From: Bdellovibrionia bacterium
GTDB taxonomy: Bacteria; Bdellovibrionota; Bdellovibrionia; Bdellovibrionales; JAGQZY01
Length of the DNA: 64,000 nucleotides
Assembly (NCBI GenBank): GCA_030424715.1
Contig: JAUHWH010000001.1
Location: forward strand, 186,001-250,000
Reading direction: 5' to 3'
The translations under genes were made by a program, and so were the position numbers. The notes beneath the pieces were generated by a model. The model worked only from the letters and a program-made list of their open reading frames with translations. It searched no databases and was not told the origin of the DNA. Of this stretch, positions 10,354 to 54,203 are shown piece by piece (position 1 is the stretch's first letter; each line of letters opens with the position of its first letter).

Positions 10354-11874
10354 ATGCTTAGATCGATTTCTAGACTTATTACCATTTTTTCTCTGCTTTT
10401 TGGGGTTTCGCAATGCCGCTGGAGTGAACCACCGCCCTCAGACACCATTGTCTTTGGACTTAGTAATGAACCAAAAACCCTAGACCCTCGCTATGGTACC
10501 GATGCTAATGGTCAACGCATCAACGGCTTGATCTTCTCTTCGCTGGTGAAAATTGGTGCTCATCTTGAGATCGAGGGAGATCTGGCTTCTTCATGGAGCT
10601 ATAAAAGCAAGACATACACCTTTCAACTTCGTCCAGGCATTCGCTTTCATGACGGGACCACTGCGACGGCTGAAGACTTTCTGTTCTCTTTTGCGGAGTT
10701 TAATAAACCTCGTTCCCCCTTTTCGCAGCAGTTCTCAGTGATCTCTAAAGTGACCGCAACCTACAACCCAGCCACTGGTGGAGAACTTAAGATACATATG
10801 AAGAAGTACTGGGCGCCGTTTCTCAACGACCTTCCTTTAATTAAGCTCTTGCCCCAAAAGGTGGTGGCTGCGGTCGGAGAAGACTTTTACGCACAGCCCA
10901 TCGGCTCTGGCCCCTTTGCCTTTCATAAAAAAGATGTCAAAAACATTTATTTAAACCGCTTCAACGATTTTTTTGGGGACAAACCTAAGGCTGAGAAATT
11001 GCAGTTTAAGATCATCAAAGACTCGAACACGCGCTTTCAGAAGATGTTTAAAGGAAAAATTGACATCGTACAGTCGGACATCCCTTTTTCGAAAGTGAGA
11101 TTCTTTAAAGATCAAAAGAACTTTCAAGTGGTCACGGCCCCTGGACTGTCGACAAAGTATATTCTACTGAATTTGAGGCACCCCATCCTTGCGCAAACAG
11201 AGGTTCGCCACGCAATCAGCTCGGCTATTCAAAGAGACATGTTAATCAAATACACCATGGAGGGGTTTGCCGAAACCGCAACATCGATCATCCCCACTCA
11301 AAACCCCTTCTTTAACAAAGAATTGAAGCACACCGCCATGAGCGACTCTCAGATTCGCATGCTATTTAAAAAAATGGCGGACAAACCTCTGATTCTAAAA
11401 ACCTCAAACACACAAGAAGCCGTTGAAGTCGGAAAAATTCTGACCCATCAGTTGAGAGAGCTCGGGCTCCCGATCGAGCAACAAAGCTACGAATGGGGAA
11501 CCTACTACGAAGATGTAAAAACCGGAAATTTTGATTTGGCCGTCATGAAATGGGTTGGTATTAATGATCCGGATATCTACCGCACGTCTTTACACTCTAA
11601 AATGACTCCCCCCGGACGCAATCGAGGCTACTACAACAACAGCGAGTTCGACCGCTTGGTTGACCGAGCCATTGTCGAAGAAAGTCTTGAAAAAAGAAAA
11701 CGTCTCTATCACAAAGCCCAGGAGATTGTATTTTCAGAGTTACCGACCATCCCCCTCTGGTATGAGAAACAGGTTGCCATCACACACAAAAGAGTCAAAA
11801 ATTATAGCCTACCGCTAAACGGAGATTTTAGTTCACTTCTGGATGTGTACAAGGATGACAGAAAAAACCAATAG
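10354..11874 (+). CDS. Oligopeptide-type ABC transporter substrate-binding lipoprotein
   Basis: 506 residues, solute-binding protein family 5 (OppA/DppA type). Family features: GLSNEPKTLDPRYGTD near the N-terminus, YTFQLRPGIRFHDGTTATAEDFLFS, IGSGPFAFHK, and the C-terminal YHKAQEIVFSELPTIPLWYEKQ. It would bind peptides in the periplasm for an ABC importer, but no permease or ATPase gene is nearby. The signal peptide ends GVSQC (Cys21), a lipobox with Gln at -1, which is unusual. A TATAAA at 10340-10345 lies only eight bases before the ATG, so the transcript may be leaderless. It overlaps the next gene by about 20 bases. Confidence 0.9.
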   Translation: MLRSISRLITIFSLLFGVSQCRWSEPPPSDTIVFGLSNEPKTLDPRYGTDANGQRINGLIFSSLVKIGAHLEIEGDLASSWSYKSKTYTFQLRPGIRFHDGTTATAEDFLFSFAEFNKPRSPFSQQFSVISKVTATYNPATGGELKIHMKKYWAPFLNDLPLIKLLPQKVVAAVGEDFYAQPIGSGPFAFHKKDVKNIYLNRFNDFFGDKPKAEKLQFKIIKDSNTRFQKMFKGKIDIVQSDIPFSKVRFFKDQKNFQVVTAPGLSTKYILLNLRHPILAQTEVRHAISSAIQRDMLIKYTMEGFAETATSIIPTQNPFFNKELKHTAMSDSQIRMLFKKMADKPLILKTSNTQEAVEVGKILTHQLRELGLPIEQQSYEWGTYYEDVKTGNFDLAVMKWVGINDPDIYRTSLHSKMTPPGRNRGYYNNSEFDRLVDRAIVEESLEKRKRLYHKAQEIVFSELPTIPLWYEKQVAITHKRVKNYSLPLNGDFSSLLDVYKDDRKNQ

Positions 11875-12763
11875 ACCAAAAGTATTGTGTGTTGATGACG
11901 AGAGGGATATTCTTGATTCTCTCGACCGCACCCTCCGTCGCCGCTTCGAAGTGCTGACAGCGACCACCTCAGCCGAGGCCGAAAGCATCGTGGCCCAGAA
12001 CCTTGATGTGAGTGTTGTGATCAGTGACCACATCTTGGGCGACGACCGTGGAGTCGACTTTCTTGGTCGCATCATGAAGGAAGTCCCTCAGGCCAGTCGC
12101 GTCCTTTTATCTGGCCAGATTGACATGAAAGCTATCGAAAATGCGATCAATTCAGCAAAAATCCATAAATTTATTTTAAAGCCCTGGGAAAACGATGAAC
12201 TCCTTATTCAAGTTGTTGAAGCTCAGAGGAATCATAAACAACTGGTTGAAAAAGATCGATTGCAAAAGTTGTCGATCACCGATCCGGTCACGCAATTAAC
12301 CAATCATCGCTTCTTTCAAGAGAAGATTCGGATCGAGTGGGAAAAGCATCAAAAGAAACAAAGCCCTCTTTCTTTATTGATGATCGATATCGATCATTTT
12401 AAAAAGTTCAATGACCGCTTTGGTCATCCTGAGGGCGACCGTTTTTTACAATTAGTGGCAGAAACTCTACAACTAGAGACTCCCGCAAAGGCTTCACTGT
12501 CTCGCTACGGAGGCGAAGAATTTGTCCTAATTCTCCCTGAAACCAACCCTCCTGAGGCGCTGGCTCAAGCCGAAAAAATGCGAAGCGCTATTTTGGAGGT
12601 CTCGTTTCACAACTATCCCCTGAGCATAAGTCTAGGCGTGGCCACGGCCCCAGAGCACGCCAGCTCTGTCGACGAGCTTATTATCAGCGCCGATCAGTCA
12701 TTGTTCCAGGCTAAACGACGAGGTCGTAACCAGACAGTTGTGGGATTGCACTTCGACCATTAA
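11855..12763 (+). CDS. Response regulator with GGDEF domain (putative diguanylate cyclase)
   Basis: About 302 residues (an alternative ATG at 11843 adds four). An N-terminal REC domain shows VLCVDDERD, the phospho-acceptor Asp in VVISDHILGDD, and FILKPWEND with the conserved Lys. A helical linker leads to a GGDEF domain: DPVTQLTNHRFFQ, LLMIDIDHFKKFND, and the active site RYGGEEFVLILPE. The GGEEF signature supports cyclic-di-GMP synthesis from two GTP. The RxxD inhibitory site normally found just upstream is absent (PAKA at that position), so product inhibition is probably lost. It overlaps the end of the binding-protein gene and is followed after nine bases by lspA, suggesting co-transcription. 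Confidence 0.93.
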   Translation: MTEKTNRPKVLCVDDERDILDSLDRTLRRRFEVLTATTSAEAESIVAQNLDVSVVISDHILGDDRGVDFLGRIMKEVPQASRVLLSGQIDMKAIENAINSAKIHKFILKPWENDELLIQVVEAQRNHKQLVEKDRLQKLSITDPVTQLTNHRFFQEKIRIEWEKHQKKQSPLSLLMIDIDHFKKFNDRFGHPEGDRFLQLVAETLQLETPAKASLSRYGGEEFVLILPETNPPEALAQAEKMRSAILEVSFHNYPLSISLGVATAPEHASSVDELIISADQSLFQAKRRGRNQTVVGLHFDH

Positions 12764-12772
12764 AATAAAGAG

Positions 12773-13732
12773 ATGAAAAAGAAAGATCTCTATTGGGTGC
12801 TCCTATCACTTTTTGGCGTGATTGCCGTAGACCAAATTAGTAAACAAATTGCCCTTGAAATGAACCCAAAAATTCATTGGGACTTCTTTCACCTCGTTTT
12901 GCACTTCAACAAAGGCGCTATGTTGGGCCTGTTCTCTGACCTGCCTCCCGTCTTGCGAATCGTTTCACTCTCAACGGGTGGCGCTTTTCTGCTTTTCTCA
13001 TTCGTGATTTTTCAATACCTGCTACCGACCCGGTCTGTGAAGCTGCGCGTGGGTATGTCTATTCTCATCGGCGGCATTCTTGGCAATGTTATCGATCGCA
13101 TCCTTTGGGGACATGTGGTCGACTTTATTATTGTTGGTAGTCAAAGCCTAAGCACTGGGGTATTTAACATCGCCGACTTACTGCAATGGTTTGGCTACGG
13201 CCTGATGGGGCACGCTCTTGTCATAGACCAAGACAATTTGTGGCCCAAAGACAATCTCCGTAAACAGGCATGGATCAACCCCAAATTTCAATTGAGATAC
13301 TGTTATATTCTCGTCACTTGCGGGCTTGGTTTTTCTCTGATTTCAGGAGTCTTCTCATACACCTTCTTACGATTTGTGGTTATCGACCTTATGGGTAACA
13401 ATACAAAACTACTCGATCAATTTCTCATTCCTTTTCTTGTGACTTTTTCATCGGTCAGTTTGGCTTTTACGGCTTTTCTGTTCATGGTGGGCAAACAGCT
13501 CTCTCACCGTATCGTGGGGCCTGTCTATGCCTTTGAAAAATTCATTGATAGCTATATAGATGGTCACCCTTACAAATTGCGGCTTCGTAAGGGCGACGAG
13601 TTTCCGGAACTCGAGGAGCTGGCAGAAAAAATTGCCAATGAACTGCGAGTCAACGATGAGGTCAAGACTCTCCCCATCCTTCCCACTGGCTTGGAGCCCG
13701 AAGGGGCTCTCAACGAAGAGCTGTCCTCTTAA
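12773..13732 (+). CDS. lspA: Signal peptidase II with C-terminal membrane/HAMP-like extension
   Basis: 319 residues, about twice the usual 160-170. Residues 1-160 are LspA: DQISK (20-24), FNKGAMLGLF (45-54), GGILGNVIDR with catalytic Asp108, VVDFI, and FNIAD with catalytic Asp135, in a four-helix membrane layout. It cleaves prolipoprotein signal peptides after the Cys is lipidated. Residues 175-240 add two further membrane helices, and 240-292 (HRIVGPVYAFEKFIDSY... then GDEFPELEELAEKI) has the pattern of a HAMP linker. The fusion is continuous in one frame with no internal start that looks better. What the HAMP-like part does is unknown; it could couple to a partner or stabilise a dimer. It lies nine bases after the GGDEF gene. 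Confidence 0.93.
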   Translation: MKKKDLYWVLLSLFGVIAVDQISKQIALEMNPKIHWDFFHLVLHFNKGAMLGLFSDLPPVLRIVSLSTGGAFLLFSFVIFQYLLPTRSVKLRVGMSILIGGILGNVIDRILWGHVVDFIIVGSQSLSTGVFNIADLLQWFGYGLMGHALVIDQDNLWPKDNLRKQAWINPKFQLRYCYILVTCGLGFSLISGVFSYTFLRFVVIDLMGNNTKLLDQFLIPFLVTFSSVSLAFTAFLFMVGKQLSHRIVGPVYAFEKFIDSYIDGHPYKLRLRKGDEFPELEELAEKIANELRVNDEVKTLPILPTGLEPEGALNEELSS

Positions 13733-14574
13733 GGCAGAATTTCTGCTTCACTTAGCTTTTTGAAATAAAACCGTTTGGATTGTTCAGGCTCGTTGGGATC
13801 AAACGCCACCATAAAGTCACCCGTGGTACTGCAAACGACAGAGATGGGCCGCACTTCACGCTTCTTGCCTTTCATTGAGCCACCGGCATAGATAATTTCC
13901 AGGTTTTTTTGAGTCTCGATCGCCTGTATGACCTTGCCCCATTGTTGGTTTTGTAGAGCCTTACCCTTGAGCGAAAAATCCTGCCACCAGAGGGGGGAGC
14001 CTTGCAACCGAAATGCATCAGCAAAGGTTTGAACCTTTTTTTCTTCAAAACACTTGAACAGCAGCTGCAAACAAGCCGAGGCATCATCCAAGGCTCGGTG
14101 GGCCTGACCGCCTTCAAGCCCCAAATACTTAACCAGAGTTTGCAGCTTATGGTTGGGCGTGCCGACAATGGAGTTGCGAGCGATCAAGCTACTACAGAGT
14201 GCCGGCTGGTCGGGTAGCTTCATGGATCGTTTTTCCATATCGTAGACCAAAAAGCCCAGGTCAAATGGAGAATGGTGCCCAACAATGACGCCATCACGAA
14301 CAAAATCCACAAAGTCGGCAAGAACATCATCGATGACCGGCGCCTCCTTTACCATCTCATTAGTGATTCCATGAATGCCAATGATAAAATCAGACATGGT
14401 CCCACGGGGCTTGACCAGGGTCTGATATGTATCCACCACTTTGCCACCGATGGACTTCACTGCCGCCAGCTCACAGAGATCATCTCGCATAGGATATTGA
14501 CCGCTGGTCTCAGTATCAATCGCAATGATGGGGAATTCAGTCCACTTTTCTGTCAGTACAGCACTATTTTTCAT
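13729..14574 (-). CDS. DEDDh 3'-5' exonuclease (DnaQ-like) with WYL-like C-terminus
   Basis: 281 residues from the ATG at 14574 (AGAAAGGG upstream; a longer frame to 14664 has no support). The exonuclease domain has IIAIDTETSG (first Asp/Glu), GHHSPFDLGF (second Asp) and QAHRALDDA (His and third Asp), the arrangement of DNA polymerase III epsilon-like exonucleases. Residues about 215-281 (QAIETQKNLEIIYAGG, REVRPISVV, GDFMVAFDP, SKRFYFKKLSEAEI) follow the strand pattern of a WYL domain. No polymerase domain is present, so this is a stand-alone nuclease, perhaps in repair. It overlaps the end of lspA by four bases, tail to tail. Confidence 0.88.
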   Translation of the reverse strand: MKNSAVLTEKWTEFPIIAIDTETSGQYPMRDDLCELAAVKSIGGKVVDTYQTLVKPRGTMSDFIIGIHGITNEMVKEAPVIDDVLADFVDFVRDGVIVGHHSPFDLGFLVYDMEKRSMKLPDQPALCSSLIARNSIVGTPNHKLQTLVKYLGLEGGQAHRALDDASACLQLLFKCFEEKKVQTFADAFRLQGSPLWWQDFSLKGKALQNQQWGKVIQAIETQKNLEIIYAGGSMKGKKREVRPISVVCSTTGDFMVAFDPNEPEQSKRFYFKKLSEAEILP

Positions 14575-14697
14575 GCCCTTTCTTACCCCAGAACGTAAGC
14601 AAATCCAAACACTTCGGCAGTCAATGGAAGGGCTTTTTTCTGACAATCCCGGAGCCTCGAGCATTGTGTTTTAGCTGAACTGGCCTTAGTATAAGGA

Positions 14698-50965: not shown

Positions 50966-52456
50966 TTATCTGGGGACCACAGAGGCGCCTTGCGCATCTG
51001 AAATTTCTCGAGGATCGTATTGGAACCACATATCAAAGGCGGTACCAAGTCGAGGTTTCTCCGGAGTTGACTCAAACCCAACAATCGACTTGTAGGCGAT
51101 ATCGTTTCCGAATTGATCCGTCTCGTAAAACTTTTCATTGGCATAGAGATGGATATAAGTGATTTTGGCTTCTTTAAGAGTTATTAGCTCCATAGAGGCT
51201 TCAACCGAGTTATCCACATTTCCATCACCATTGTAGTCATGCCACAAACGAAGCTTTGTAAACACAGCATCGTTGGCATCGATGTAACCATCAGACATGA
51301 TCGCTTCGTTGGATCCGGCATCGTTGTTGTCATATTTCATCAAAGCGTGAAAGCCATCTCTCGCAAATGGTTTGTGAGCATCTGGACCAAAGGTGTTGTC
51401 ACCGAATAGCTGATCGATACCTAATACTTGACCAGACGCATTGGGTAGCACCAAGAAACGATAGCGCTCTTGGTCCCGACGAGTCCAACTCATCTTTTGA
51501 AACTTAAAGTTCTTTCCAGCATTATGAATGTGGAGAAAGTCGCCGCTATCAAGTACTGTCTGAGTTTGCTGACCAAGAAGATTGAAACCTTGAAAGTTAC
51601 GACGCTCACGAATGTCATCAACATCCACTTCGGCAACAGGGTTTGGGTTGGTTAGGTTTAAGTCACCACTCTTAAAGTAAGAGGCATCAGAGTTTCTCAA
51701 CTCGTCGGCTGTGGCATACTCAACACCGACCGTGTCAATCATGAGGGGATCGCCACCACCGTCACCGCCACCATCGCCGCCGCCGTCACCACCGCCATCG
51801 CCGCCACCAGGAACTTCTGGATTTGGATTATCAGTAATACACTCAGGCAATCTAGGGTTTGTAAGGCAAGTTTCCACTTCTGGCGTGGGAGTCTCGATAA
51901 CCGGAGGCTCAGGCTCAGTCACGACAGGTGGTTCGACCACGACAACACAAGTTTTTTGGTCACTGCTTAAAACATCGCAACGCTCACAATTACGCGAGGG
52001 GCGATCCACATCGTTGCCGAAAAAGATATATTGATTGCGTTGATCGCAGCGTTGCACTTCACAAATAGGTTGTTCAACTCCATCAATCACTCGAACGCCC
52101 TGGGCAACACAAGGTCGGCATCGTGTATAGTTACCGTCTCTTCCCAAAACCTGAAAGCGGCCATCGGGACAAAATTGAAAGGGAGGGAGAGGTGTTGGTG
52201 TATCAACTACGACCACCGGCTCTTCGGGAGTTTGAGGCGTTGGCGTATCAACATCTCCTGGGATGATTTGATCCGTTTGCCTTGGGCCCGTGTAAGAGGT
52301 TGTAGGCTCTTCAAAAACTGGGTTTTGCGAAAGGTGAGCCTCAGACTCAATACCACTGAAAGAATGAAACTGATTACAGTTCGACACTCCCACTAGGATT
52401 AAAACCAAGACAGCAGACTTAATCACTCTTTTAAATATGCTAGTAAGGTTGTTCAT
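50966..52456 (-). CDS. Large lipoprotein with Cys-rich modules and a calcium-binding-like C-terminus
   Basis: 496 residues. Signal peptide with lipobox VGVSNC (Cys27; Asn at -1). A Pro/Thr/Val-rich stretch (65-95) leads to Cys-rich modules (FCPDGRFQVLG, CRPCVAQG, CEVQRCDQRN, CERCDV, CLTNPRLPEC), then a GGGD repeat (about 217-236). The C-terminal 250 residues contain FGPDAHKPFARDGFHALMKYD, DGYIDANDAVFTKLRLW and HDYNGDGNVDNS, the EF-hand/dockerin-like pattern common next to RTX regions in large secreted proteins. Probably surface exposed and calcium binding. Function unknown. Confidence 0.75.
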   Translation of the reverse strand: MNNLTSIFKRVIKSAVLVLILVGVSNCNQFHSFSGIESEAHLSQNPVFEEPTTSYTGPRQTDQIIPGDVDTPTPQTPEEPVVVVDTPTPLPPFQFCPDGRFQVLGRDGNYTRCRPCVAQGVRVIDGVEQPICEVQRCDQRNQYIFFGNDVDRPSRNCERCDVLSSDQKTCVVVVEPPVVTEPEPPVIETPTPEVETCLTNPRLPECITDNPNPEVPGGGDGGGDGGGDGGGDGGGDPLMIDTVGVEYATADELRNSDASYFKSGDLNLTNPNPVAEVDVDDIRERRNFQGFNLLGQQTQTVLDSGDFLHIHNAGKNFKFQKMSWTRRDQERYRFLVLPNASGQVLGIDQLFGDNTFGPDAHKPFARDGFHALMKYDNNDAGSNEAIMSDGYIDANDAVFTKLRLWHDYNGDGNVDNSVEASMELITLKEAKITYIHLYANEKFYETDQFGNDIAYKSIVGFESTPEKPRLGTAFDMWFQYDPREISDAQGASVVPR

Positions 52457-52724: not shown

Positions 52725-54203
52725 TTGTCTAAAAATACGTGGGTGTGTCTTTTCATCGGATTTCTTTTACCCCTAGCACTATTCCAAAATTGCGGTAGCC
52801 AGTTTAAAGCCAACGAAAGCCAAGTCTCTTTTTCATTTTGCAAAGTGCAGGGCGATCAAACTAAATTTGCATCCAGTAAAATTCATCTGGATGCTCCCTT
52901 CTTCGCCGCTCAACAGAAAGTCGGGTTTACGGAGAGGCACTACTCCATCGTGCTGGACGTGCAATGCAGCCTAGAATCCGACGAACCTATGGAGTTCTTG
53001 GGGCAACAACTTGTGTTACAAGATGAGCACAAAAGGATGCAAAAGGCAGCCCTCACTTTAGCCATGCCTGCCAACCCAGACTTAAAAGCCTTTGAACTTG
53101 AGCTTGATAACAACCCATGCTTGCTAGCCGTCACAGAAAACCACGATATCAAACACACCCAGAGCAACCAGACATTCGCGGTCAACGACCCACAGGCTTC
53201 GAACCAGGCCCACCTGAGCTTTCTGCAACACTCACAATCTTTGGCTTTGCAATCAGCCATCAACAGACCGGTCGTGGTGGCCTTTATCGACACTGGCGTG
53301 GACTACAATCACCCGGACCTGCAATCTCGCATGTGGCGAGACAGCAGTGGACGTTATGGGTTCAACGTCCTCAGTCAAAGTTACGACCCTCTTGATGACG
53401 ACGGGCATGGCACTCATGTGGCTGGTATCGTTGCTGCCGTAGAAAATGACGGCAGCGGGGTGGCCGGTTTGACCGGCGACTATGTGCAAGTCATGGCGAT
53501 TAAAGTTCTTGATCGCAGTGGCGAGGGGACATCTCAGCAGGTTTACAATGGAATTCAATACGCCATCACCAACGGTGCCGACATCATCAACTTGAGTGTG
53601 GAATCCCAGGGGAGAAACACTCTGATGGAAGACGCATTAAGAGACGCGGTCAATGCCGGCATTGTGGTGACCGCCGCAACGGGCAACCAATCCAGTGAAA
53701 TAACAAACGGTGACCTCTATGCTCCGGCTTACATTGGTCCAGGTCTGGCCGGGGTCATTTCTGTGGCATCCGTCGACACCCAAGGAGTTCGCTTGTCCAA
53801 TTTTTCAAACTACAGCGCCACCTATGCTGAGATTTCGGCACCGGGTGCTGAAAATTCGGCGAACTCCAATGGCGGCATTCTATCAACGGAACTCAATGGC
53901 ACCAGCAAACGAATTCGCGGCACCTCACAAGCCGCTCCCATGGTGACCGCAGCGGCGGCTATGCTCATTGGATATTTAAAAACCAACGGTATCGCCTACA
54001 CCCCCAAAGGAATTGAAGACTTTTTAAAGAGCGATGGCGTCATGATCAACACCAACCTTAGACCTTACGTCTTTGGGGGCGGCATTCTCAATTTGGGATT
54101 TCTAGCCCAAAATCTAACCTCATATTTTTCAAACGCAAGTGCTGGGGATGGTTCCATCTTTAATGGTGGCGAAACCTCGGGCAACTCCTGTACCATTCCT
54201 TAG
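52725..54203 (+). CDS. Subtilisin-like serine protease lipoprotein (S8 family)
   Basis: 492 residues from a TTG at 52725, supported by GGGGGAG six bases upstream and a signal peptide ending LFQNC (Cys23; Asn at -1). An N-terminal region of about 160 residues, perhaps a propeptide, precedes the catalytic domain with the full triad: Asp189 in VVAFIDTGVDYNHPDL, His228 in DDDGHGTHVAGI, Ser401 in IRGTSQAAPMVTAAAAML; oxyanion Asn in TAATGNQSSE. It would be anchored to the outer membrane and cut proteins outside or in the periplasm. A role in prey digestion is inference. Confidence 0.92.
   Translation: MSKNTWVCLFIGFLLPLALFQNCGSQFKANESQVSFSFCKVQGDQTKFASSKIHLDAPFFAAQQKVGFTERHYSIVLDVQCSLESDEPMEFLGQQLVLQDEHKRMQKAALTLAMPANPDLKAFELELDNNPCLLAVTENHDIKHTQSNQTFAVNDPQASNQAHLSFLQHSQSLALQSAINRPVVVAFIDTGVDYNHPDLQSRMWRDSSGRYGFNVLSQSYDPLDDDGHGTHVAGIVAAVENDGSGVAGLTGDYVQVMAIKVLDRSGEGTSQQVYNGIQYAITNGADIINLSVESQGRNTLMEDALRDAVNAGIVVTAATGNQSSEITNGDLYAPAYIGPGLAGVISVASVDTQGVRLSNFSNYSATYAEISAPGAENSANSNGGILSTELNGTSKRIRGTSQAAPMVTAAAAMLIGYLKTNGIAYTPKGIEDFLKSDGVMINTNLRPYVFGGGILNLGFLAQNLTSYFSNASAGDGSIFNGGETSGNSCTIP

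Follow-up and report, generated by a model that had tools for sequence, protein, structure and literature searches.

A predicted second signal peptidase II with a HAMP-like extension in Bdellovibrionota, and its association with lipoproteins carrying an unusual lipobox

Do bacteria possess two lipobox codes served by two peptidases? Signal peptidase II (LspA), an antibiotic target, is viewed as a housekeeping enzyme that follows a single lipobox code. A gene in the DNA analysed here (the window, a stretch of 64,000 nucleotides from a Bdellovibrionia genome) makes this question testable. The gene encodes a variant LspA fused to a HAMP-like module (LspA-HAMP in the following), and many of its relatives lie beside lipoproteins with unusual lipoboxes, as would be expected if the enzyme were devoted to a particular lipoprotein class. 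A search of the available literature found no description of an LspA with a HAMP domain and, in the case of Bdellovibrio, no description of either lipobox variants or a second LspA. The gene and its LspA half are located as follows:

12773..13732, + strand: LspA-HAMP gene, complete ORF of 319 aa
12773..13240, + strand: LspA (signal peptidase II, Peptidase A8) domain, residues 1-156, four transmembrane (TM) helices and beta-cradle
13094..13096, + strand: Asp108 of GNxxDR, conserved, non-catalytic, equivalent to S. aureus Asp109
13121..13123, + strand: predicted catalytic Asp117, equivalent to S. aureus Asp118
13175..13177, + strand: predicted catalytic Asp135, equivalent to S. aureus Asp136

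The frame (12773-13732, +, 319 aa) starts with ATG and is uninterrupted. The LspA assignment made in the earlier note was confirmed by a profile search: PF01252 (Peptidase_A8) matched residues 14-145 with an E-value of 4.7e-22, over profile positions 3-136 of 142. TIGR00077 scored 62 bits, under its cut-off of 73.95. Foldseek searches with the structure model retrieved 5dir, 6ryo and 6ryp (E 6e-7 to 7e-6, TM-score 0.69-0.79 by target length), and among solved structures the LspA enzymes of S. aureus and P. aeruginosa are closest. All of the 14 LspA signature residues were identical to those of S. aureus LspA. The catalytic dyad of the S. aureus enzyme is Asp118/Asp136 (PMC6952399, from which the residue numbering for the comparison was taken), and alignment places the predicted catalytic pair of LspA-HAMP at Asp117 and Asp135. 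Asp135 had been named correctly at the outset, but its proposed partner, Asp108, is the conserved non-catalytic residue of GNxxDR. The catalytic and binding residues that were checked are invariant across 77 further LspA-HAMP orthologues. The orthologues also share the architecture described in the earlier note, in which LspA continues in frame as two helices and a HAMP-like segment. The same length and architecture throughout the phylum, the 14 signature residues and the invariant residues of the extension exclude a mis-assembled frame. Judged by its residues, LspA-HAMP is predicted to encode a catalytically intact second signal peptidase II.

The second half of the protein consists of the following segments:

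13241..13279, + strand: conserved basic linker, residues 157-169 (W157 and R163 nearly invariant)
13280..13393, + strand: fifth long membrane helix, residues 170-207 (AlphaFold2 model; Q173 invariant)
13403..13558, + strand: sixth membrane helix running into an AS1-like helix (SHRIVGPVYAFEKF), residues 211-262 (AlphaFold2 model and conservation)
13559..13606, + strand: HAMP-like connector (coil), residues 263-278 (R272 and D275 invariant; AlphaFold2 model)
13607..13666, + strand: AS2-like helix, residues 279-298 (AlphaFold2 model)

AlphaFold2, run with 65 orthologues, modelled LspA-HAMP with a mean pLDDT of 90.7, and residues ~157-319 as two long helices and one short helix. The helix 211-262 (52 residues) passes from the membrane into the cytoplasm and is followed by a connector that contains LRKGDEF. 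Residues Q173, G249, R272 and D275 are invariant in 65 LspA-HAMP sequences. The HAMP layout proposed in the earlier note is thus present in the model, a monomer prediction: a TM helix continuous with AS1, a connector and AS2. HAMP proteins (PF00672; WalK, 9a5d) share with the tail the passage of the last TM helix into a first cytoplasmic helix in which a G-P is conserved, the D-E-F connector and the second helix. The tail differs from them in that the enzyme is N-terminal, there is no output domain behind, and no curated HAMP model matches: PF00672 gave no match to LspA-HAMP at E <= 10 and was absent among the families listed for 61 relatives. Searches of the extension against Pfam, NCBIfam and PDB sequences returned chance-level TM matches only and identified no family. 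Profile comparison (hhalign) with the source genome's own HAMP domains gave a weak alignment in register (14% probability, P 0.0019), and comparison with a five-sequence set gave 0.4%. In the fold search, the isolated tail was matched best by the HAMP kinase WalK (9a5d; probability 0.96, but E 0.68).

Two-helix HAMP-like proteins that stand alone (160-210 aa, SHKIAGPIY...FRxGD) are widespread in Bdellovibrionota and score above cut-off with families of neither Pfam nor NCBIfam (examples at L215, L216, L223-L226, L228, L229, L231 and L232). They share the SHKIAGPIY motif and a conserved Gln with the LspA-HAMP extension, but no protease is fused to them. The extension is homologous to these proteins (hhalign 99.2%, E 1.3e-19), and they are closer to HAMP than the extension is (66%, P 5.7e-5), reaching PF22610 (CovS-like_HAMP) at 0.0016 and 0.042, both below cut-off. 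From its layout and this distant profile similarity, the tail of LspA-HAMP is called HAMP-like here, and it is probably a distant relative of HAMP.

The source genome has two LspA genes, the housekeeping LspA (a 168-aa frame) being located elsewhere. Full-length LspA-HAMP orthologues are present in nearly every genome of the taxonomic order of the source genome (the own order; mostly 45-58% identity) and in many other Bdellovibrionota genomes. With the single LspA-HAMP protein as the query, a search across named genomes found nothing. The same scan with a profile of closer sequences gave 96 matches, of which 80 were listed; among these 80 are Bdellovibrio bacteriovorus and 79 contigs with Bdellovibrionota or generic MAG titles, one listed record being apparently mislabelled and other phyla being covered non-exhaustively. 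In a tree of the LspA domain, a branch with support 99/95 separates the LspA-HAMP sequences from the housekeeping LspA and S. aureus LspA, indicating one old fusion that was kept. LspA-HAMP is a monophyletic, Bdellovibrionota-wide subfamily apart from the housekeeping LspA, and it is very probably an active second LspA specific to this phylum.

A third, short LspA type (loop ...TGVFNVAD) was observed in two genomes without LspA-HAMP (L214 and L219), and it branches between the housekeeping LspA and LspA-HAMP in the LspA-domain tree. Decayed LspA-HAMP copies were seen in two reduced genomes that have no N-terminal FQN^C lipoproteins:

L052:3218-4108(+) and L210:1464-2400(+): decayed LspA-HAMP copies of G212 and G237, with D117N and D135V in G212 and several binding residues lost in G237

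The neighbourhood of the gene was then compared within the own order. The genes of the window that bear on this comparison are:

10354..11874, + strand: extracellular solute-binding protein family 5 (PF00496, 1.2e-58), lipobox VSQ^C
11843..12763, + strand: REC-GGDEF diguanylate cyclase-like gene (Pfam), ending 9 bases upstream of LspA-HAMP
13729..14664, - strand: convergent exonuclease-like gene whose end overlaps the stop of LspA-HAMP, a conserved neighbour

LspA-HAMP follows the REC-GGDEF gene at 9 bases here, as first noted, but this is not a conserved neighbour: it adjoins LspA-HAMP in 4 of the 16 own-order loci examined, and c-di-GMP coupling through it was rejected as a general feature on this count. 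By comparison, a D-Ala-D-Ala carboxypeptidase-like gene is near LspA-HAMP in 16/16 own-order loci. The exonuclease-like cluster was found in 12 loci, 11 of them with the gene at the same place, and a solute-binding protein is near LspA-HAMP in many own-order loci. The lipobox of the solute-binding protein varies: its -1 residue is Q in the window and H in the same-genus orthologue (TSH^C; L053:6789-8297(-)), but the remaining own-order members with a detected lipobox have S or G. Regulated or partner-dependent processing, as proposed in the earlier note, stays plausible because the extension of two TM helices and a HAMP-like segment exists and has been conserved; the link to REC-GGDEF and c-di-GMP is not conserved.

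A stronger clue than the regulatory reading is found outside the gene, in its lipoprotein company with a non-canonical lipobox. The lipobox consensus is [LV][ASTVI][GAS]C (PMC8689077). Outside the own order, lipoprotein genes adjoining LspA-HAMP encode the lipoboxes FTQC, FQNC, YNQC, YNHC, YTHC and YQNC, and a [FY][NTQ][HQN]^C lipoprotein is present within three genes of LspA-HAMP in 25/41 loci. The lipoboxes at these 41 loci have N/Q/H at -1 in 31 cases (30 of them with F or Y at -3) and G/A/S in 9. As the background we used 400 kb each, away from the locus, of G082 (with LspA-HAMP) and G055 (same genus, without it), where 0 of 45 lipoboxes have N/Q/H at -1 (31:9 vs. 0:45, Fisher 2e-15, uncorrected for shared ancestry). 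All three N/Q/H lipoboxes of G082 sit at the LspA-HAMP locus. Among the loci fetched after the hypothesis had been formed, 13/20 harboured a lipoprotein with an N/Q/H lipobox. Among the adjoining lipoproteins with this motif, at least eight dissimilar families are represented, with NHL-repeat and CxxCH proteins as well as unknown ones. On a contig labelled Bacteriovorax (L423) with a Bdellovibrio-type LspA-HAMP, the next gene encodes a TYQN^C lipoprotein. A recurrent operon around LspA-HAMP (L080, L081, L083 and L088) was also observed; it encodes CxxCH lipoproteins of 230 aa and 440-570 aa and a protein with an SRRDFL-type signal peptide, and representatives of its proteins had no match in Pfam.

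In the own order, motif lipoproteins are scattered and do not lie beside LspA-HAMP. Of 18 DNA matches to the motif in the window's genome, 13 are FQN^C signal peptides, and the window itself harbours two candidate substrates:

50966..52426, - strand: putative lipoprotein, VSN^C lipobox
52725..54203, + strand: subtilase (PF00082), FQN^C lipobox, Cys codon 52791-52793

Outside the own order, raw counts of the FQN^C DNA pattern were discarded as uninformative, because the matches are nearly all chance (a signal peptide in 1 of the 30 loci checked). In family f17, the lipoprotein family A4 (YNHC/YNQC) or its FTQC/YTQC relatives are present in 18 of the ~26 LspA-HAMP-bearing genomes examined, but full-length in only 1/53 genomes without LspA-HAMP; the distant homologues seen in eight gene-less genomes all have an S^C lipobox. 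None of the 16 FQN^C DNA matches in G177 and G225 (no gene) and in G212 and G237 (decayed copies) was a signal peptide. The motif class and an intact gene are both missing in G177, G225, G212, G237 and 52/53 f17 genomes, but the motif class is present without the gene in G223, G193 and, unless its third-type LspA takes over, G247. The loss of the motif is perhaps incidental, because the genomes with no FQN^C lipoproteins are reduced (1.2-2.0 Mb). G223 has five FQN^C signal peptides and one detected LspA, LspA-HAMP being missing at the conserved locus and in the rest of the assembly. G247, without LspA-HAMP and its neighbour, has 10-11 FQN^C and an extra LspA of the third type, which might substitute for LspA-HAMP. 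Family A4 (YNN^C) is present in G193 without a detected LspA-HAMP, and G236 has one FQN^C without LspA-HAMP. Elsewhere, CIM-1 of Chryseobacterium, with the lipobox FLNC, appears membrane-associated (PMC10920655), so that N at -1 may need no special enzyme.

The explanation that we favour is that LspA-HAMP is specialised for a non-canonical lipobox, with a HAMP-like tail that probably dimerises or regulates the enzyme; taken whole, it stands about an even chance of being right. Domain composition, conservation, monophyly, and the linkage and co-occurrence with the lipobox class are computed results; proteolytic activity, specificity, dimerisation and regulation are inferred from them or proposed. 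Lgt would lipidate the Cys of the prolipoprotein, and the LspA half would cleave the diacylglyceryl-modified prolipoprotein before this lipobox Cys. At -1 LspA-HAMP would prefer N/Q/H, which are bulky and polar, and at -3 an aromatic residue, and it would be specialised, wholly or partly, for [FY]-[NTQ]-[NQH]-C prolipoproteins, ordinary [LVI]-[ASTVI]-[GAS]-C prolipoproteins being left to the housekeeping LspA. The two-TM plus HAMP-like module would probably dimerise the enzyme and couple its activity to the state of the membrane or of a partner, and the protease may be gated, or a partner recruited, according to the state of the dimer. Because of the counterexamples G223, G247, G193 and CIM-1, specialisation for the lipobox is likely but not exclusive.

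The unusual lipobox could instead be a habit of the lineage that either LspA processes, LspA-HAMP being a second housekeeping-type enzyme of ordinary specificity and its tail a dimerisation or stability module. The general active site is intact, FQN^C lipoproteins are kept in the gene-less G223 and G247, and an FLNC lipobox is known from CIM-1, all of which agree with this reading; dissimilar [FY]x[NQH]C lipoproteins are however tightly linked to LspA-HAMP and nearly absent elsewhere in the same genomes, and the lipobox class and LspA-HAMP co-occur phyletically, so that we consider it rather unlikely. A further reading builds on the regulatory proposal of the earlier note: LspA-HAMP would be regulated by a signal, membrane-borne or linked to c-di-GMP, that reaches the protease through the HAMP-like unit, and the lipobox class would be secondary. 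This finds agreement in the two-helix plus HAMP-like layout, the homology of the extension to the stand-alone proteins (hhalign 99.2%) and the REC-GGDEF gene 9 bases upstream in the window, but is made improbable by the rarity of that neighbour (4/16 own-order loci), a very short extracytoplasmic loop, the absence of an output domain and the lack of a curated HAMP match. The substrate-class reading is put ahead of the regulatory one, which is possible but secondary. We regard as very unlikely that the extension is a docking platform for partners (e.g. Lgt, Lnt, Lol or an export machine) which sends special lipoproteins along a path of their own, such as one to the surface or one into prey. Bdellovibrio lipobox proteins do reach the surface or prey (PMC11003981, PMC10127604), linked operons encode signal-peptide and CxxCH proteins, and in one genome the tail carries a thiol-peroxidase-like domain as a fusion, but no partner was identified.

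Among known systems, LspA-HAMP shares with LspA (MEROPS A8, PF01252; 5dir, 6ryo, 6ryp) the fold, the four core helices, the beta-cradle and the 14 residues; it differs in its separate clade, in the 160-residue C-terminal two-TM plus HAMP-like extension, and in being a second copy besides the housekeeping LspA that is linked to [FY]x[NQH]C lipoboxes. In sortase-like systems (exosortase, rhombosortase) the processing enzyme is co-located and co-occurs with proteins bearing the matching motif. LspA-HAMP resembles these systems in its linkage to motif-bearing candidate substrates, but it would act on N-terminal lipoboxes, belongs to the LspA family and shows a looser pairing. Extra LspA genes are described in the accessible text of PMC8689077 for Myxococcus xanthus (lspA3/4, myxovirescin) and as a second copy in globomycin producers. 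As in the source genome, there is more than one LspA per genome in these producers, but according to that text the paralogues lie in or beside inhibitor biosynthetic clusters, none of which was seen near LspA-HAMP, and the same text makes no mention of a HAMP-like extension.

If the preferred reading is true, lipoprotein maturation can divide into routes, and standard lipobox predictors may miss one class of lipoproteins. Tentatively, and with somewhat less than an even chance, LspA-HAMP would be the first case of a signal peptidase II reserved for a lipobox code of its own ([FY][NTQ][NQH]^C), providing a second, possibly signal-gated, maturation route across this phylum of predatory bacteria. 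Lipoproteins of Bdellovibrio modify and grip prey, which makes LspA-HAMP testable as a control point of predation.

C-terminal fusions were considered as a pointer to the output of LspA-HAMP and rejected as too rare (one genus and one genome). In the genus, LspA-HAMP is in frame with a CxxCH and beta-barrel-like protein, giving a frame of ~655 aa:

L033:633-2594(-): ~655-aa LspA-HAMP frame
L034:4463-6418(+): ~655-aa LspA-HAMP frame
L035:264-2234(+): ~655-aa LspA-HAMP frame

A signal-peptide-like segment, ending in ALA or AWA before YPQYIG, lies between the two parts of these frames, which may be a true fusion or two overlapping genes. The single genome encodes an LspA-HAMP of 485 aa with a C-terminal thioredoxin/peroxiredoxin-like domain (SCPLCALH; L037:2924-4378(-)).
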